From Planococcus sp. SK3692 (GTDB lineage Bacteria; Bacillota; Bacilli; Bacillales_A; Planococcaceae), in contig NZ_JARCHV010000001.1 in NCBI RefSeq assembly GCF_028890485.2, forward strand, positions 186,001 to 250,000: a DNA stretch of 64,000 nucleotides, written 5' to 3'. Below, piece after piece: positions 8,254 to 15,206 of this stretch. The position numbers and the translations under genes were made by a program. How positions within the stretch are numbered: position 1 is the stretch's first letter; each line of letters begins with the position of its first letter. The notes beneath the pieces were generated by a model. It was not told the origin of the DNA, ran no database searches, and saw only the letters and a program-made list of their open reading frames with translations.

Positions 8254-9681
8254 TTAACTATGGATCGCTTTGCCGTCTACGGCTAAGGCCGCTTCGCCCA
8301 TGACTTCTGAGAGCGTCGGGTGCGGGTGGATTGTATCTGCAATTTCCCAAGGCGTTGCGTCAAGTACCATGGCAAGTCCGGCTTCTGAGATCATGTCCGT
8401 TACATGCGGCCCGATCATATGGACACCGAGGATATCGTTTGTTTCTTTATCTGCAATGATTTTCACGAAACCATCCGATTCTCCGTAGACCAGCGCTTTG
8501 CCGATCGCCTTGAATGAGAATTTCCCGGTTTTCACGTCATAGCCTTGTTCTTTCGCCTGGTCTTCTGTAATGCCAACACTTGCCGCTTCGGGGTTTGAGT
8601 AAATGCAACGCGACACAAGATCGTAGTTAATGGCATGTGGTGCATTGCCTTTAATATGCTCAACTGCGGTAATGCCTTCGTGAGATGCCACGTGTGCGAG
8701 CTGCATACCGCCGATAACGTCGCCAATTGCATAAATATGGGATTCTTTCGTCTGGAACGTGTTCTTCACATGGATAAAGCCTTTTTCGATAAGAATGTCC
8801 GTGTTTTCAATCCCGATATTCTCCACATTCGCTTGGCGTCCGACTGATACTAGCATTTTTTCGGCAGTGAAGGTTTCGTTACTGCCGTTAATTTCGGCTT
8901 GGATCGATACTTGGCCATCGCCTTTTTCAACGGTTTCCGGCAACACTTTTGCGCTCGTTGCGAACTTGACACCTTTTTTCTTCAGTAATTTCTGCATTTC
9001 TTTGGAAATGTCTTTGTCTTCAGTTGGGACAATGCGGTCTGCATATTCGAGAACTGTCACGTCGACGCCGAAATCGTTGAGCATCGAAGCCCATTCGATT
9101 CCGATAACGCCTCCGCCAACGATCAAGATCGATTTCGGCAGTTCGCTCATGGCAAGCGCTTCTTCTGAACTCATGACGATGTCACCGTCGATATCAAGGC
9201 CCGGCAATGTCCGCGGGCGAGATCCTGTTGCGATGATGACGTTATTCGGAATGAGCATTTCGTTCTCTTCCCCGTTGTTCATTTCAACGGAAATGGTTCC
9301 TGGGTTCGGTGAGAAGATGGATGGCCCAAGAATGCGGCCGATGCCTTCGTAGACATCGATTTTGCCTTTTTTCATCAAGCCTTGTACCCCTGCATGAAGC
9401 TGGTCGACGATTCCTTGCTTGCGCTGTTGGACCCGCGTGAAATCAAGTGATACATCGCCCGTGTTGACGCCGAATTCTGCCGCATGGTGCTTGGTCGTCG
9501 CATACACTTCTGCACTGCGCAATAATGCTTTACTCGGGATGCAGCCTTGGTGCAGGCATGTGCCGCCCAAATTGCCTTTTTCGACAATCGCTGTTTTAAG
9601 TCCAAGTTGTGCTGAACGGATCGCTGCTACATAACCGCCCGTACCGCCGCCTAAAATGACGACATCATAATTCTGAGCCAT
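8254..9681 (-). CDS. lpdV: Dihydrolipoamide dehydrogenase (E3) of the BCKDH complex
   Basis: 475-residue FAD/NAD disulfide oxidoreductase that reoxidises the lipoyl groups of BkdB. The N-terminal FAD site GGGTGGYVAAIRSAQLG, redox-active disulfide GGTCLHQGCIPSK (about 40-52), second dinucleotide fold GGGVIGIEWASM, and the dimerisation-domain catalytic HPHPTLSE (His-Glu) are all intact. It lies between buk and bkdAA with short spacing and a good Shine-Dalgarno. This is the operon-specific E3; a separate pdhD for pyruvate dehydrogenase would be expected elsewhere. Confidence 0.95.
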   Translation of the reverse strand: MAQNYDVVILGGGTGGYVAAIRSAQLGLKTAIVEKGNLGGTCLHQGCIPSKALLRSAEVYATTKHHAAEFGVNTGDVSLDFTRVQQRKQGIVDQLHAGVQGLMKKGKIDVYEGIGRILGPSIFSPNPGTISVEMNNGEENEMLIPNNVIIATGSRPRTLPGLDIDGDIVMSSEEALAMSELPKSILIVGGGVIGIEWASMLNDFGVDVTVLEYADRIVPTEDKDISKEMQKLLKKKGVKFATSAKVLPETVEKGDGQVSIQAEINGSNETFTAEKMLVSVGRQANVENIGIENTDILIEKGFIHVKNTFQTKESHIYAIGDVIGGMQLAHVASHEGITAVEHIKGNAPHAINYDLVSRCIYSNPEAASVGITEDQAKEQGYDVKTGKFSFKAIGKALVYGESDGFVKIIADKETNDILGVHMIGPHVTDMISEAGLAMVLDATPWEIADTIHPHPTLSEVMGEAALAVDGKAIHS

Positions 9682-9706
9682 AAGGTATTCCTCCTATATA
9701 AATTGA

Positions 9707-10792
9707 TTAACCGCTCGGATAGATTCTCGCTTGTTCTTCACCGTCGAGAACACGGCTTGCGCCTTCTGCGAGTGCCTGTAATTCATTTTCTCCAGGATGG
9801 ACGACAACATCGGCAATCCAGGAGATTCGGTCGGAAATGGCTTTGACGAAATCTTTGCCATACGCCAAGCCGCCCGTCAAAATGATGGCATCCACTTGGC
9901 CTTTTAAGACGGCGCTTGCAGAACCAATCTCTTTTGCTACTTGGTATGCCATTGCGTCATAAATCATTTCTGCGTCTTTATCGCCTTTTTGAATGCGTTT
10001 TTCGACCGTAACAGCATCATTGGTTCCGAGATATCCAACCAACCCGCCTTGTCCGACCAATTTCTTCATAATCTCATGGCGATAATATTGTCCTGAAAAG
10101 CATAGTTCGACCAAATCGCCAGCAGGCACTGTGCCCGCACGTTCCGGGCTAAATGGCCCGTCGCCGTGCAATCCGTTGTTGACATCGATGACTTTTCCTT
10201 CTTCGTGGACACCGACCGTAATGCCGCCGCCCATATGGGTGACGATAAGTCGCAGGTCTTTATAAGCGCGCCCTGTTTCTTTCGCATAACGTCTAGCGAC
10301 TGCTTTTTGATTGAGCGCATGGAAAATTGACTTGCGTTCAATGAGTGAAAATCCAGATACCCGCGCAATCGGTGCAAGTTCATCAACAACGACCGGATCG
10401 ACGATAAAGGCGGGAATGTTCAGCCCTTCAGCTATTTCATTGGCAATGATGCCGCCGAGGTTGGAAGCGTGCTGGCCAGAATAGCCTTCGCGCAAATCGT
10501 TGAGCATTTCTGCGTTTACGGCATAAGTACCGCCTTCAATCGGACGCAGCAATCCTCCTCTTCCGCATACAGCAGAAAGTTTGGATACATTCATGCCATC
10601 TTCATCGAGCGCTTCTAAAATGGTTTGTTTACGAAATTGAAACTGGTCAATAATGGCAGGGAAATCCGCCAACTCTTCAGTGGAGTGGCGGATAGTCTTT
10701 TCAAGGATCTGTACATCGTTGTCAAAAACGCCGATCTTTGTCGAAGTTGAGCCGGGATTAATGACCAGAATTCGATTCAGCTGTTTTTGCAC
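9707..10792 (-). CDS. buk: Butyrate / branched-chain fatty acid kinase
   Basis: Acetate-kinase-family (ASKHA fold) enzyme that makes ATP and branched-chain acid from acyl phosphate. N-terminal [14 protein letters not shown] is the phosphate-1 motif; [23 protein letters not shown] and ILTGGLAYG are the other sugar-kinase-like motifs. The start is placed at a GTG (10792, giving 361 residues) because GGAGG lies eight bases before it; a TTG nine codons upstream (10819) has no good ribosome site. With ptb it forms the substrate-level phosphorylation branch of the pathway. Confidence 0.92.
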
Positions 10793-10821
10793 ATCGATTT
10801 CCTCCGTTTCTTCTTTCAACT

Positions 10822-11922
10822 TTAGCGTCTGCTTAAAATGTCGTGGCTGTGGCCGTTGCGCAAGAATTGGCTTCTTGATTTGCGCACGCGTTCGATGCGT
10901 TCTTCTGCCATGCGGTCAGCTGCGATATAACTTGGAATCCCGTCGCGTTTTGCAATTTCGAAAATACGGGTGATGCTGTCGTAAATAGTTTCAACGCGTT
11001 TCATCGCACGTTCGTTGTTGTAGCCATATAGCTCATCCGCAACGTTGATGACGCCGCCTGAGTTGATGACGAAATCCGGTGCATAGACGATGCCGCGTGC
11101 TTCAAGCTCATCGCCGTGGCGTTGTTCTTTTAATTGGTTGTTAGCAGAGCCTGCAACTACTTTCACTTTCAATTGAGGAATCGTTTCATCGTTGATGATG
11201 GCGCCCATTGCACACGGTGCAAAAATATCCGCCTCTTGCGAGTAAATTTCGTTCGGCTCGACAGCCGTTGCGCCGAATGCATCGACTGCACGTTGAACCG
11301 CTTGTTTGTTGATGTCTGTGACGATCAATTTCGCGCCTTCTTTATGCAAATACTCGCATAGCGGGTAAGCGACGTTTCCGACGCCTTGTACGGCTACTGT
11401 TTTGCCTTCAAGTGAATCGTCGCCGTATGCTTCAAGCGCTGCAGCTTTCATGCCGATGTATGCGCCGTATGCCGTAACAGGTGATGGGTTGCCCGAAGAG
11501 CCGAATGCTGGCGAGATGCCTGTGACGAAATCCGTTTCTTCGTGGATCATGTCCATATCAGCGACTGTTGTTCCAACATCTTCTGCAGTAATGTAACGCC
11601 CGTTCAAGCCTTGGATGAAACGGCCGAAAGCGCGGAACATTTCTTCGTTTTTGTCTTTCAACGGATCACCGATGATGACAGTTTTCCCGCCGCCAAGGTT
11701 AAGGCCGGCTGCTGCATTTTTGTACGTCATGCCGCGGCCAAGGCGGATGGCATCTTCAATCGCTTCTTCTTCACTTTCATAGTTCCACATACGCGTGCCG
11801 CCAAGTGCTGGCCCAAGCGTTGTGTCGTGGATGCAGATGATGGCTTTTAGCCCTGAATTTTTATCTTGGCAAAATACCAATTGCTCATAGTCATGTTCTT
11901 CCATCTTTTTGAAAATTTCCAT
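10822..11922 (-). CDS. bcd: Leucine/branched-chain amino acid dehydrogenase
   Basis: 366-residue Glu/Leu/Phe/Val dehydrogenase family member: NAD-dependent oxidative deamination of Leu, Ile and Val to the keto acids used by BCKDH. The catalytic Lys lies in [12 protein letters not shown] (about 75-86); GGTRMWNY and the Rossmann NAD site [15 protein letters not shown] are clear. Strong Shine-Dalgarno TAGGAGG before the ATG. It lies between ptb and buk as in B. subtilis. Phenylalanine dehydrogenase is a family alternative, ruled out mainly by context. Confidence 0.94.
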
Positions 11923-12018: not shown

Positions 12019-12927
12019 TTATAAAGTCGCTGAGCGCAAGGCTAGAGCGAGGGAAAATAATTTGCTTTCTGCACTGTCGGCGCGCGATGTCAAAACGATC
12101 GGTGCTTTAGCACCCGCGATGATGCCGCCGACTTTGGCTTTAGAAAAATAGACAAGCGATTTGTAGAGGATATTGCCGGCTTCGATATTCGGCACCAAGA
12201 GGATATCTGCGTGTCCTGCCGTATCTCCTTCGATGCGTTTATGTTTTGCCGCTTCAACGGAAATCGCATTGTCCAGGGCAAGTGGCCCGTCAACGACGCA
12301 ATCCGTGATTTGCCCACGCTTGTTCATGGCAGTCAGTGCTGCAGCATCCAATGTTGCCTGCATGGCAGGATTAACAACCTCCACCGCCGCTAGCGCTGCC
12401 ACAATCGGCAACTCTACGCCAGTCGCTCGCGCTACCTGGACGGCATTGCGGATGATCTGGGCTTTTTCCTGAAGCGATGGCTCAAGGTTCATCCCGGCAT
12501 CGGTGACAAAGATGAGCCGGTCATAGCCAGTGACTTCAAAAGCCGCCACATGGGATAATATCGACCCAGTGCGTAGGCCATAGTCAGGGTTGAGTGCCGC
12601 TTTCATCAAGGTGGCGGTCGGGATATGCCCTTTCATCAAGACGCTGGCGTCATTCATGAAGACTGCACGTACCGCTTCTTTGGCTGCTAGGTTTGGCCCT
12701 TTGACATGATGGATCATCAGTTTCGGGTGGCCTTTTAAATGTGGGAAATCCTCAGCGATTAATTGCTTTAATGTTGCTTCGTCATCATACAAATGAAAGC
12801 TCGCAAGATTTTGGTCGAGCGCTAATGAAATAGCTTCCATTACCGCATGGTCAGCAGCTGCTGCCACTGCGACAGCGTGCTCTTCCTGCAAATCAATTTC
12901 ATCAACAATGTTCTGCAAAGTGGTCAT
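12019..12927 (-). CDS. ptb: Phosphate butyryltransferase (branched-chain acyl-CoA:phosphate acyltransferase)
   Basis: Converts isobutyryl-, isovaleryl- and 2-methylbutyryl-CoA to acyl phosphates for Buk. 302 residues from the ATG at 12927, close to the B. subtilis enzyme. An in-frame extension to 13044 is open but would run through the repeat array upstream; the ATG here has a good Shine-Dalgarno (GAGGTGAT), so the shorter form is chosen. Family sequences include FVTDAGMNLEPSLQEKAQII and the C-terminal LVPNIEAGNILYKSLVYFS. It is the first structural gene of the bkd operon. The 96-base gap to bcd shows no clear element. Confidence 0.93.
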   Translation of the reverse strand: MTTLQNIVDEIDLQEEHAVAVAAAADHAVMEAISLALDQNLASFHLYDDEATLKQLIAEDFPHLKGHPKLMIHHVKGPNLAAKEAVRAVFMNDASVLMKGHIPTATLMKAALNPDYGLRTGSILSHVAAFEVTGYDRLIFVTDAGMNLEPSLQEKAQIIRNAVQVARATGVELPIVAALAAVEVVNPAMQATLDAAALTAMNKRGQITDCVVDGPLALDNAISVEAAKHKRIEGDTAGHADILLVPNIEAGNILYKSLVYFSKAKVGGIIAGAKAPIVLTSRADSAESKLFSLALALRSATL

Positions 12928-12998
12928 ATCTATCACCTCATTCCTTTTAATTAAAACAGAAGAAAGCCTGAGATATAAGGGATGTAAGCGTTTTATTT

Positions 12999-13058
12999 GC
13001 AAAATACAGCAGTTCTCTTTGCAAATTCTTGCAAAACCTTGCAAAGAGTTGCAAAACG
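12999..13058 (-). promoter_or_regulatory. Phased TTTGCAA array upstream of ptb (possible BkdR operator)
   Basis: On the minus strand four TTTGCAA elements follow each other with an exact 10-base period (GCAA at 13021, 13031, 13041 and 13051 on the plus strand), with a fifth near 12999, 22 bases further on. TTGCAA is its own complement, so all four sites lie on one DNA face. The array starts within a few bases of the bkdR stop. The fifth element could also act as a -35 (TTGCAA, 18 bases, TTATAT) for a sigma-A promoter of ptb. A proper GG-N10-GC sigma-54 element was not found. Confidence 0.55.
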
Positions 13059-15101
13059 CTATAGAAGTCCGAATTTTTCCAATTTATAGTATAGAGTACG
13101 CAAGGAAATCTGAAGCTGTTTAGCGGTTTTCGACTTATTCCCTTTCGCTTCTTCAAGCGCACGGTGGAGGATGCCGCGCTCTACCGTTTCCAATTGCTCC
13201 TGCAAAGGCGCCGATGCTGGAATAACGACTTCGTTCTTCGCTTCTTTGGCCTTCAGCATATTTAACGGAATATGTTCTTCTGTCATCGTTTTATCGTTCA
13301 TCTGCATGAAAATCATCGAACGGCTCAAAATGTTTTCCAGTTCCCGCACATTGCCCGGCCAATCGTACATTTTCAAAAACTGTACGGCTTTCTCCGACAC
13401 ACTTTCCACGTTCCTCCCATATTCCTGATTGAGCTTTAATAACAGGCGGTCAACGATGCGCGGAATATCTTGTTTCCTGCTGCGCAGCGGCGGAATCAAA
13501 ATCGGCATGCGGTTTAATCGGTAATACAAATCTTCTCGGAACGTTCCGTCAAGCAGCGCTTTTTCCATATTGGCATTGGTCGACGCGATGACTCGAACAT
13601 TGACCGGGATCGGCTTGGTCCCACCAATCCGCATCGTTTCGTGTTCTTGCAACACGCGCAGCAATTTACTTTGGATTTGCGGCGACAATTCGCCGATCTC
13701 ATCGAGGAAGATGCTGCCGTTATTTGCTTCCTCCAACAAGCCGCGCTTTGCCCCGGTCCGGCTTTCAAGCGTCGCGCCTTCCTCGTAGCCGAACAATTCA
13801 GCATCAAGCTGTTCGCTCGACACGGCCGCACAATTAACGCGGACAAATTTATTGAACTGGCGCTCACTGGCGCTGTGGATGGCGTGCGCGAACAATTCCT
13901 TGCCCGTTCCCGATTCACCCCGTAACAACACCGTTACAAGCGTTTGGGCAGCGAGTTTCGCTTGCTGGAGTGACAGCTGCATTTCAGGGGACAAGCCAAT
14001 GATATCGTCGAATGTATATTTCGACTCAAGCGTCCGGATAATGCTCCTTGCCCGGTCCAACTCTTTCATAAGCGAGCGGATCTCCGTCGTGTCATGGATG
14101 ACTCCGACGCTCCCCTTCAATTGGTTATCAACAATGATCGGGGCCACATTAACGATTACTTCCCGTCTGGCCGGCCCGACTTTTAAATTAACGCCGCGCA
14201 CCGGTTTGCGGGTTTGCAAGGCTTTGAAGTGCATGCTTTCGCCCTCAGAGATATCGGCAGACGCCGGACGGCCGATCACTTGTTCCATCTCAAGACCCGT
14301 GATTCGTGTATAGGCCGGATTGACAAGCAAGCCATTTCCTTTTTCATCCACCACCGAAATCGCATCGTCGCTCGATTGGATGATCGCTTGCAACATTGTC
14401 TGGATTTCTTTCAAATCGGTAATTTCCTCTGCGAGCGAAACCACTTCCGTGATGTCCTTGAACACCGCAAAGGCACCAATCAATTCGCCCGTTTCATCGA
14501 TCATCGGAAAACGACTCGTGACGATTTTCGATCCATCTTTCAGTTCGAGCTCCCGGTTCAATTCCGTCCTGCCCGTCTCGATGATCCTCGGCAATTCGCT
14601 CATCGAAATCAACTCGTGGATATGGCGTCCGATCGCTTCGTCCTGCTTGACCGAAAGCATGCGTGCCGCACTGCGGTTGATGAAGTTAATATGGTTATCG
14701 AGATCGATGCCGACCATACCTTCGTCAATTGAATTAAAAATGATTGATCCTTTATGACTCTCATTGCTCAGTCGGTTGATATAATGCTCTTTTTCATCCA
14801 TCAAGCGGACAAAAATATTGGCGACGCTTCCGGGAATGATGACAGTGCGCGGGGGATAATACCGGCGCAGCCGCTGCGTCAAGTCATCGTCTCCTGTTAC
14901 GTTAAAAACGATGTCGACCGTTTTCGGCAATTCTCGGTAATCTGCGCCGGTAGCTATATGAAATTTTTCAGCTTGTTTTAACGCTGGCGCATCGGCGTGG
15001 ATATCTGCGACTCCTTCGACATGAAACCATCCGGATTCAACGAGTAGTTTTAAAATTGCAGAACCGCCGGTACCACCGCCGATAATGATCACTTTTTGCA
15101 A
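13059..15101 (-). CDS. bkdR: BkdR-type AAA+ transcriptional regulator of the bkd operon, lacking GAFTGA
   Basis: 680 residues, similar in size to B. subtilis BkdR. Order: an N-terminal Rossmann-like segment (IIIGGGTGGSAI, about 5-16), two PAS-like sensor domains (about 110-225 and 235-345), an AAA+ domain with Walker A GESGTGK (about 395-401), Walker B FLDE (465-468), REDLYYRLN (about 522-530) and sensor II WPGNVREL (581-588), and a C-terminal Fis-type helix-turn-helix (about 645-677). The loop that should read GAFTGA reads GATLES (about 442-447), so sigma-54 contact looks lost although ATPase motifs are kept. The start is a TTG at 15101 with AGAAAGG upstream. It lies directly before ptb in the same direction. 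Confidence 0.9.
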   Translation of the reverse strand: MQKVIIIGGGTGGSAILKLLVESGWFHVEGVADIHADAPALKQAEKFHIATGADYRELPKTVDIVFNVTGDDDLTQRLRRYYPPRTVIIPGSVANIFVRLMDEKEHYINRLSNESHKGSIIFNSIDEGMVGIDLDNHINFINRSAARMLSVKQDEAIGRHIHELISMSELPRIIETGRTELNRELELKDGSKIVTSRFPMIDETGELIGAFAVFKDITEVVSLAEEITDLKEIQTMLQAIIQSSDDAISVVDEKGNGLLVNPAYTRITGLEMEQVIGRPASADISEGESMHFKALQTRKPVRGVNLKVGPARREVIVNVAPIIVDNQLKGSVGVIHDTTEIRSLMKELDRARSIIRTLESKYTFDDIIGLSPEMQLSLQQAKLAAQTLVTVLLRGESGTGKELFAHAIHSASERQFNKFVRVNCAAVSSEQLDAELFGYEEGATLESRTGAKRGLLEEANNGSIFLDEIGELSPQIQSKLLRVLQEHETMRIGGTKPIPVNVRVIASTNANMEKALLDGTFREDLYYRLNRMPILIPPLRSRKQDIPRIVDRLLLKLNQEYGRNVESVSEKAVQFLKMYDWPGNVRELENILSRSMIFMQMNDKTMTEEHIPLNMLKAKEAKNEVVIPASAPLQEQLETVERGILHRALEEAKGNKSKTAKQLQISLRTLYYKLEKFGLL

Positions 15102-15177
15102 TTTTCTTCAAACCTTTCTGTCGCGATTCGTGCAATAGACTGCACACATATTTCTAGACTACAGCAGGGGACAATTC

Positions 15178-15206
15178 TTGACAACTTTAAGTGGATTGGA
15201 AACAAT
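15178..15206 (+). promoter_or_regulatory. Sigma-A promoter for the DUF2627 gene, back to back with a bkdR candidate
   Basis: Plus strand TTGACA (15178-15183), 17 bases, AACAAT (15201-15206), about 24 bases before the start at 15230. The same bases read on the minus strand give TTGTCA at the -35 of a weaker candidate for bkdR (17-base spacer, TAGTCT), so the two divergent promoters would overlap at their -35 boxes. Confidence 0.6.

Follow-up and report, generated by a model that had tools for sequence, protein, structure and literature searches.

Sigma-54 needs ATP and a remote enhancer. To leave sigma-54 control, a gene has to alter its regulator and its promoter in concert, and such exits are therefore difficult to observe. 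BkdR regulates the breakdown of branched-chain amino acids, and the bkd operon feeds into the synthesis of branched-chain fatty acids, which is an important trait in these bacteria. In a 64,000-nucleotide stretch from Planococcus sp. SK3692 (here called the window, meaning the whole of the DNA that was analyzed), bkdR sits directly upstream of ptb-bcd-buk-lpd, and a first-pass annotation had noticed that the loop through which its product should contact sigma-54 is altered. This raises the question of how a regulator and its operon can part from sigma-54 while the regulator itself is kept.

Read from sequence, our results demonstrate that the sigma-54-contacting loop of BkdR has been lost and is drifting, that the genome has no detected sigma-54 gene, that the -24/-12 element of ptb is gone, and that the ATPase core and the putative operators are kept (Table 1). 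Planococcus and its relatives seem to show a control circuit switching its polymerase machinery step by step: at one locus, living relatives provide a start, apparent intermediates, and end states, and the overlapping-promoter intermediate can be tested.

TABLE 1 Features of the bkd locus, in window positions
Feature	Position	Strand	Remarks
bkdR, 680 aa, TTG start	13059..15101	minus	N-terminal Rossmann-like region, two PAS, AAA+ (Sigma54_activat), Fis-type HTH
GATLES hexamer (residues 442-447)	13761..13778	minus	Replaces GAF[S/T]GA; from ORF translation and alignment
Walker A GESGTGK	13899..13919	minus	Invariant in 45/45 readable Planococcus BkdRs
Walker B FLDE	13698..13709	minus	L to I in 7/45 Planococcus; other three positions invariant
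FREDLYYRLN segment	13512..13541	minus	Invariant in 45/45 Planococcus BkdRs
Sensor II WPGNVREL	13338..13361	minus	Invariant in 45/45 Planococcus BkdRs
BkdR C-terminal HTH	13065..13139	minus	
ptb, first bkd structural gene, ATG at 12927	12019..12927	minus	Named from sequence
bcd, buk, lpd, downstream operon genes	8254..11922	minus	Named from sequence (ORFs listed from 9000 on)
Putative ptb operator, dyad 1, TGCAACTCTTTGCA	13040..13053	minus	Center about -103.5 from predicted start
Putative ptb operator, dyad 2, TGCAAGAATTTGCA	13020..13033	minus	Center about -83.5 from predicted start
Overlapping third ptb dyad	13043-13030	minus	With dyads 1 and 2, four half-sites in 10-bp steps
cre-like site ATAAAACGCTTACA	12983..12996	minus	Pattern in 45/45 Planococcus genomes
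Weak -35-like TTATAT before ptb	12973..12978	minus	17 bp ahead of TTTAAT; CTTAT unchanged across 43 distinct aligned sequences
Extended -10-like TGn + TTTAAT, TGTTTTAAT	12950..12958	minus	About at the relatives' -12; in 45/45 Planococcus
bkdR promoter, -35-like TTGTCA	15179..15184	minus	17 bp ahead of -10-like TAGTCT
bkdR promoter, -10-like TAGTCT	15156..15161	minus	Weak; TACGCT in 24/45 Planococcus
Putative bkdR operator dyad TGCAGTCTATTGCA	15131..15144	minus	Just past -10 (about +6 to +19); one mismatch to TGCAA-N4-TTGCA; predicted autorepression site

A degenerate loop in an otherwise intact BkdR

The first-pass annotation had reported GATLES in place of GAFTGA without a change in length, in an AAA+ domain that is otherwise intact, and both observations hold. 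The translated ORF, which includes ELFGYEEGATLESRTGAKRGLLEEANNGSIFLDEI, carries GESGTGK, FLDE, and WPGNVREL; its loop region reads ELFGYEEGATLESRTGAKRG, with GATLES at 13778-13761, and in a 114-row alignment this hexamer falls, ungapped, in the columns of the GAFSGA or GAFTGA from 38 BkdRs of Bacillaceae. Pfam models assign Sigma54_activat (PF00158, 201 bits against a cut-off of 20.2), two PAS stretches, an AAA+ lid, and a Fis-type HTH to the protein. In the available excerpts of PMC3162934, the substitution rules for GAFTGA admit only F or Y at position 3 and only T, S, E, and possibly D at position 4, so that GATLES fails at both positions.

The protein is an orthologue of Bacillaceae BkdR by its full-length homology and its place beside ptb-bcd-buk-lpd. 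Of its 25 best NCBIfam matches only a PAS domain model scores above its cut-off and no equivalog model does, and the name BkdR therefore rests on orthology and on the position before ptb.

The first-pass annotation had proposed a comparison of orthologues across Planococcaceae and Bacillaceae. bkdR is present in all 46 Planococcus genomes searched and the loop is degenerate in every one, reading GATLES, GATIEH, GATLKS, GATAES, GATAEN, or GALPDN in close named relatives and GATLES, GATIEH, GALPGI, GAVPFV, GTIPGS, GSVYGL, GALQDV, and others across the genus; GAF[S/T]GA is kept at 47/47 Bacillaceae loci. Because close relatives and the whole genus share degenerate loops, an assembly or sequencing error is very unlikely as the source of GATLES.

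Sigma-54 in the strain and in the genus

The genome of the strain (3,544,398 bases, completeness 100) gave no hit for PF04552, the DNA-binding domain of sigma-54, in a search that was positive in 4 of 14 control genomes, and gave only sub-threshold matches to the activator-interacting domain PF00309. Its PF00158 matches number seven; none of these loci encodes a GAFTGA-like motif, and only BkdR and one other product resemble enhancer-binding proteins in score and extent. TTGGCAYN5TTGCW occurs once in the entire genome, on a different contig from bkd. Together with the missing ptb element described below, these results support the earlier proposal that bkd control has left sigma-54. The other enhancer-binding-like product (L002, 1027-2373) is a second PAS-AAA-HTH protein, of 448 residues, with a Walker A of GPRGTGK and without the GAFTGA loop, and is thus a further relative of the sigma-54 family in a genome where sigma-54 was not detected.

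Elsewhere in the genus, rpoN scores above the cut-off in 12 of the 46 genomes. This is what might recommend a reading in which the loop variants still engage sigma-54 wherever rpoN exists and only genomes without it are uncoupled. However, those 12 genomes have an equally degenerate BkdR loop and no -24/-12 element upstream of ptb, so the state of the loop does not track present-day rpoN in Planococcus. Their 16 rpoN genes (four genomes have two copies) also fall on separate branches of a tree made by a quick method, with five changes, at least three of them forced by starred branches. The neighborhoods of these genes (L247-L262) vary, with a protein bearing GAF[S/T]GA or GSFTGA nearby in 8/16 cases. 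We regard continued sigma-54 engagement as exceedingly improbable. The scattered branches and differing neighborhoods suit a repeated acquisition of rpoN, and sigma-54 seems to arrive in Planococcus as packages, half of them with a gene resembling those for enhancer-binding proteins. Four of the RpoN proteins (G079, G228, G130, and G230) group with those of the Paenisporosarcina-like group g11 with a support of 88; these may be old and would fit vertical retention.

Selection on BkdR

In 13 close genomes, the AAA+ domain without the loop has a pN of 0.014 and an omega of 0.012, and loop positions 3 to 6 have a pN of 0.266 and an omega of 0.44; for BkdR as a whole without the loop, omega is near 0.02. 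These values are to be read with a dS near 1.1 within the close clade and a dS that is saturated genus-wide. Across 45 Planococcus genomes, each of positions 3 to 6 exceeds 96.6 to 99.6 percent of AAA+ positions in variability, and FLDEIGEL is nearly as constant as the invariant motifs of Table 1. The FREDLYYRLN segment, which we take to be the arginine finger, is kept in g1 (Planococcus), g11, and g12 and nearly kept in g4; elsewhere in the tree set its consensus is altered to FNEELYYVLN (g3), FREDFYFQLN (g5), and FLEELYFQVN (g2).

On these substitution patterns, BkdR is under strong purifying selection with its sigma-54 contact released, a protein constrained yet uncoupled from sigma-54. Its ATPase motifs and putative operators are kept, and ATP hydrolysis and enhancer binding are predicted properties. 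An AAA+ enhancer-binding protein with strictly conserved ATPase motifs that lacks its known client makes the job of the ring a direct question.

A pseudogene reading of bkdR is ruled out by the omega near 0.02 and the invariant motifs. The related view that BkdR is a decaying remnant, its loop changes being the neutral decay of a useless protein, could point to loop positions that are among the most variable of the domain and to one genome with bkdR in two frames. It is extremely improbable in view of the low omega outside the loop, catalytic segments that are invariant or nearly so in 45/45 proteins, conserved operators, and a gene present in 46/46 genomes. In the genome with two frames (G236, locus L155) the gene is split near residue 470, through either a genuine frameshift or faulty assembly; it was excluded from the Planococcus selection, promoter, family-total, and operator counts, which have n = 45.

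The ptb promoter

The -24/-12 element TGGYAYN5TTGC was found upstream of ptb at 45/47 Bacillaceae loci and in 0/45 readable Planococcus genomes; rpoN was present in all 27 Bacillaceae genomes checked, a subset of the 47. GAF[S/T]GA occurs without the exact -24/-12 pattern at two Bacillaceae loci (L051 and L052) and in one genome of g17 (G051), and loop and promoter states are therefore not perfectly matched.

An alignment of 44 Planococcus intergenic sequences, 43 of them distinct (G236 and G220 left out), has invariant columns mainly at the TGCA half-sites, at the cre-like site, which is presumably a CcpA site, at CTTAT, and at TCTGnTTTAAT. The -35-like TTATAT agrees with TTGACA at 3/6 positions, and a generic sigma-70 consensus scan finds neither the ptb nor the bkdR promoter proposed here; because the scan supports neither, both proposals rest on conservation and position. 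The weak -35-like element and the failure of the scan could be taken to mean that at ptb BkdR relies on a different alternative sigma factor and not on sigma-A. TGn-TTTAAT, however, fits the extended -10 of the housekeeping sigma factor, and we consider a different alternative sigma factor quite improbable. When counted across groups, TGnTT[T/A]AAT also matches 6/8 g4 genomes and 1/47 Bacillaceae; the g4 matches are taken as chance occurrences in coding sequence, because there a gene starts closely after bkdR.

Putative operators and the proposed bkdR promoter

Conservation points to TGCAA-N4-TTGCA as the BkdR site, a putative operator. Dyads 1 and 2 of ptb follow the bkdR stop codon at a spacing of 20 bp, and dyad centers of -103.5, -93.5, and -83.5 recur in 45/45 Planococcus genomes with at most one mismatch (one genome adds -73.5), positions that assume a ptb start 7 bases past TTTAAT. 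Measured from the -24/-12 element, the dyads of the g6 relatives are centered at -86 and -105 in G042 and at -86 or -87 alone in the other two genomes. Among Bacillaceae, only 32/47 loci have a dyad with at most one mismatch upstream of ptb, most between -74 and -95.

The 3.54-Mb genome of the strain contains six perfect dyads, three of which overlap at ptb; a reversed-pattern control gave none. Two of the remaining three are within long ORFs. The last (L324, near 1500) is 24 bases 5' of a likely ATG whose product begins MKELKFSKGLLASVLLSAGALAA, and this gene may be another target of BkdR.

TTGTCA-N17-TAnnnT followed by a dyad precedes bkdR in 45/45 Planococcus (g1), 8/9 g11, 1/2 g12 (the other has a spacing of 18), 3/3 g6, 2/4 g17, 42/42 g3, 8/8 g4, 17/19 g5, and 4/4 g2 genomes, as counted with one pattern that accepts a loose dyad start. 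Two of 19 g5 sequences, one that begins late and one that is interrupted, showed no dyad. The -10-like hexamer is TATGAT in 39/42 g3, 8/8 g4, and 17/19 g5 genomes. A g3 subgroup (G157, G116, G190, G217, G213, G152, and G229; L237-L243) has an extra perfect dyad 252 to 254 bp upstream of bkdR, perhaps a distal operator, in addition to the one at about -35.

A proposed mechanism for BkdR without sigma-54

We consider it likely that BkdR no longer activates the sigma-54 polymerase, and we infer that it works with sigma-A, represses bkdR, and activates ptb. BkdR would still assemble on TGCAA-N4-TTGCA dyads as an AAA+ complex responsive to ATP and ligand, with sigma-A as its partner. At bkdR, the dyad just beyond the predicted start would mediate autorepression. 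At ptb, the tandem dyads near -83.5 and -103.5 would assist polymerase at the extended -10-like promoter in a class I-like manner, and CcpA would act at the cre-like site between dyads and promoter. The dyad spacing at ptb resembles that of class I activators, and activation rather than repression there is read from operator position. BkdR would then be functionally like TyrR, a repressor and activator working with sigma-70, a state reached independently.

A simpler scheme would make BkdR only a repressor of bkdR, and perhaps of ptb, with a ptb promoter that is otherwise constitutive and CcpA controlled. The dyad just downstream of the TTGTCA-N17 bkdR promoter in most groups is in line with this, as are most g3 and g4 genomes, where that dyad is the sole one left and ptb or bcd follows closely after bkdR, an arrangement that suits simple repression. 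The ptb dyads of Planococcus, however, are far upstream (about -83 and -103) at a fixed spacing, which is poor for steric repression, and they are near the sites used in g6 relatives that have a sigma-54 promoter (-86 and -105). Repression as the sole function is in our view rather unlikely, and dual action with sigma-A is the reading that we prefer.

The first-pass annotation had described BkdR as a conventional regulator that kept its sensor and ATPase parts. The second half of this description stands, with PAS, ATPase, and HTH parts kept under purifying selection; the conventional role is presumptive, as neither promoter emerged from the generic sigma-70 scan.

Apparent routes away from sigma-54 in the Planococcaceae

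The first-pass annotation had placed the change in the lineage of this strain. The loss is real but not species specific: it is genus-wide, including the 12 genomes with rpoN, and extends to most Planococcaceae BkdRs. Of 136 such proteins (45 from Planococcus and 91 from others), 11 keep GAF[T/S]GA and 125 lack it; with rpoN present the loop is lost in 57 and intact in 9, and with rpoN absent it is lost in 68 and intact in 2. Five genomes with weak PF04552 matches (E of 2e-4 to 8e-4) were counted as lacking rpoN, and G097 is below the cut-off. Since 141 of 145 PF04552 matches are above it, one of the other four must lie just above, and one of the 68 may therefore belong with the 57. The uncoupling does not follow the presence of sigma-54, and loss of rpoN followed by loss of the loop is ruled out as the whole story, as 57 of the 66 Planococcaceae that have both rpoN and BkdR lack the motif. 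An annotation as sigma-54 dependent would be wrong for most Planococcaceae BkdRs. In the order-level searches, the matches listed were all from Planococcaceae.

In g6 and g17, -24/-12 lies upstream of ptb in 3/3 and 3/4 genomes, respectively, and all seven have GAFTGA and rpoN. In g11, 9/9 genomes match TGnTT[T/A]AAT. Its two rpoN-bearing members read TTGGCACACTTTATGCTTAAAT, with TTGGCAC and, 5 bases on, ATGC, a near -24/-12 that overlaps TGCTTAAAT. The seven without rpoN have loops of GAFTGA (two, one in a genome that is 81% complete), GSFTGA, GAFVGA, DAFAGA, DAFVGA, and, in one genome, a sequence changed throughout. In six of these seven the -24 has decayed (AGGTAC, AGGTGC, GCCAC, and others) and TGnTTAAAT stays, and one g11 genome (G091) keeps both GAFTGA and TTTGGCACGCTTTATGC with rpoN not detected. 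We read this pattern as the trace expected of a dual promoter in transition from sigma-54 to sigma-A.

Downstream of bkdR, neither a -24/-12 element nor tandem dyads were found in g3 and g4. In three g3 genomes, one dyad match with one mismatch lies 129 bases on. Among the matches listed, ptb or bcd begins within about 100 bases of bkdR in most g3 and g4 genomes, the single bkdR dyad is TGCAAAAGATTGCA in most g3 genomes, and g5 and g2 resemble this layout with varying spacing. In g3 and g4 the bkdR promoter and its single dyad appear to have taken over the operon. Two routes seem to have been taken, conversion of the promoter in place (Planococcus, g11, and g12) and loss of the ptb promoter that left the promoter and operator of bkdR (g3, g4, and probably g5 and g2).

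In a BkdR tree made by a quick method, every group forms one side of a branch. G236 and five incomplete or interrupted Planococcaceae sequences were dropped and the input was then thinned from 178 to 114 rows; the tree carries warnings that four terminal branches are long, that long branches meet at one place, and that two rows are unusual in composition. The loop losses require three changes if regain is free; a hand count without regain gives five or six, or four or five if g5 with g2 and g3 with g4 are joined at an open fork. In this count, the loop of G061, GSFTGA, may still be functional.

Tentatively, and as a possibility to which we give somewhat less than an even chance, the bkd locus may have kept a stepwise conversion from sigma-54 to sigma-A. 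A dual promoter would have come first, the GC of its -12 doubling as part of TGn as in the g11 sequence above; sigma-54 dependence would then have been dropped, and -24 and GAFTGA would have decayed. The AAA+ ATPase would have stayed under full selection because it serves a sigma-54-independent switch. By the second route, the bkdR promoter and operator would have taken the operon, and the arginine-finger segment would later have decayed in some lineages.

Comparison with known systems

The BkdRs of Bacillus subtilis and Bacillus thuringiensis share with that of Planococcus the order bkdR then ptb, two PAS, AAA+, and HTH, and dyads upstream of ptb occur in relatives. They differ in keeping GAF[S/T]GA, and the B. 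thuringiensis ptb promoter, TTGGCACGGTATTTGCT, is sigma-54 controlled, with markedly decreased activity without BkdR (PMC4428206, in the excerpt available). In Neisseria, species differ in the use of sigma-54 and sigma-70 at pilE, and one has a -12/-24 without a sigma-54 role; there, a shortened rpoN coexists with a -12/-24 that is still present, whereas bkd has another element in its place and an activator that has lost the loop (PMC6755734, as far as the accessible text goes).

Relatives of enhancer-binding proteins that lack GAFTGA and use sigma-70 are already known, and BkdR is a variant of that theme. The statement in the first-pass annotation that such proteins, TyrR among them, use the housekeeping sigma factor is matched by the accessible part of PMC3162934, where TyrR of Escherichia coli depends on sigma-70 and works without sigma-54, sigma-70 dependence is demonstrated for DhaR and HupR and proposed for VpsR and YplP, all four with a defective GAFTGA, and two organisms lacking sigma-54 have an enhancer-binding protein with Glu at position 4. 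In contrast to what those excerpts give for DhaR, HupR, VpsR, and YplP, the target promoter and apparent intermediates can be traced across relatives at bkd. Among the matches listed in open-licence literature, there was no report of this bkd series.

Like BkdR of Planococcus, E. coli TyrR is an AAA+ relative with no working GAFTGA (PMC3162934, in part); GAFTGA is reportedly retained in a TyrR from Azospirillum, and TyrR reportedly makes contact with the polymerase alpha subunit (PMC6375630, excerpt). Against the TyrR model NF008085, BkdR scores 263 bits with a cut-off of 576, short of TyrR orthology. BkdR also differs from TyrR in its N terminus: residues 1 to 118 (window 14748-15101) carry a GGGTGG motif and resemble a Rossmann NAD-binding fold, with weak Pfam matches, below cut-off, to CofD, GFO_IDH_MocA, and NAD_binding_7. 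Because this region looks Rossmann-like, BkdR may sense nucleotide or redox state in addition to a PAS ligand.
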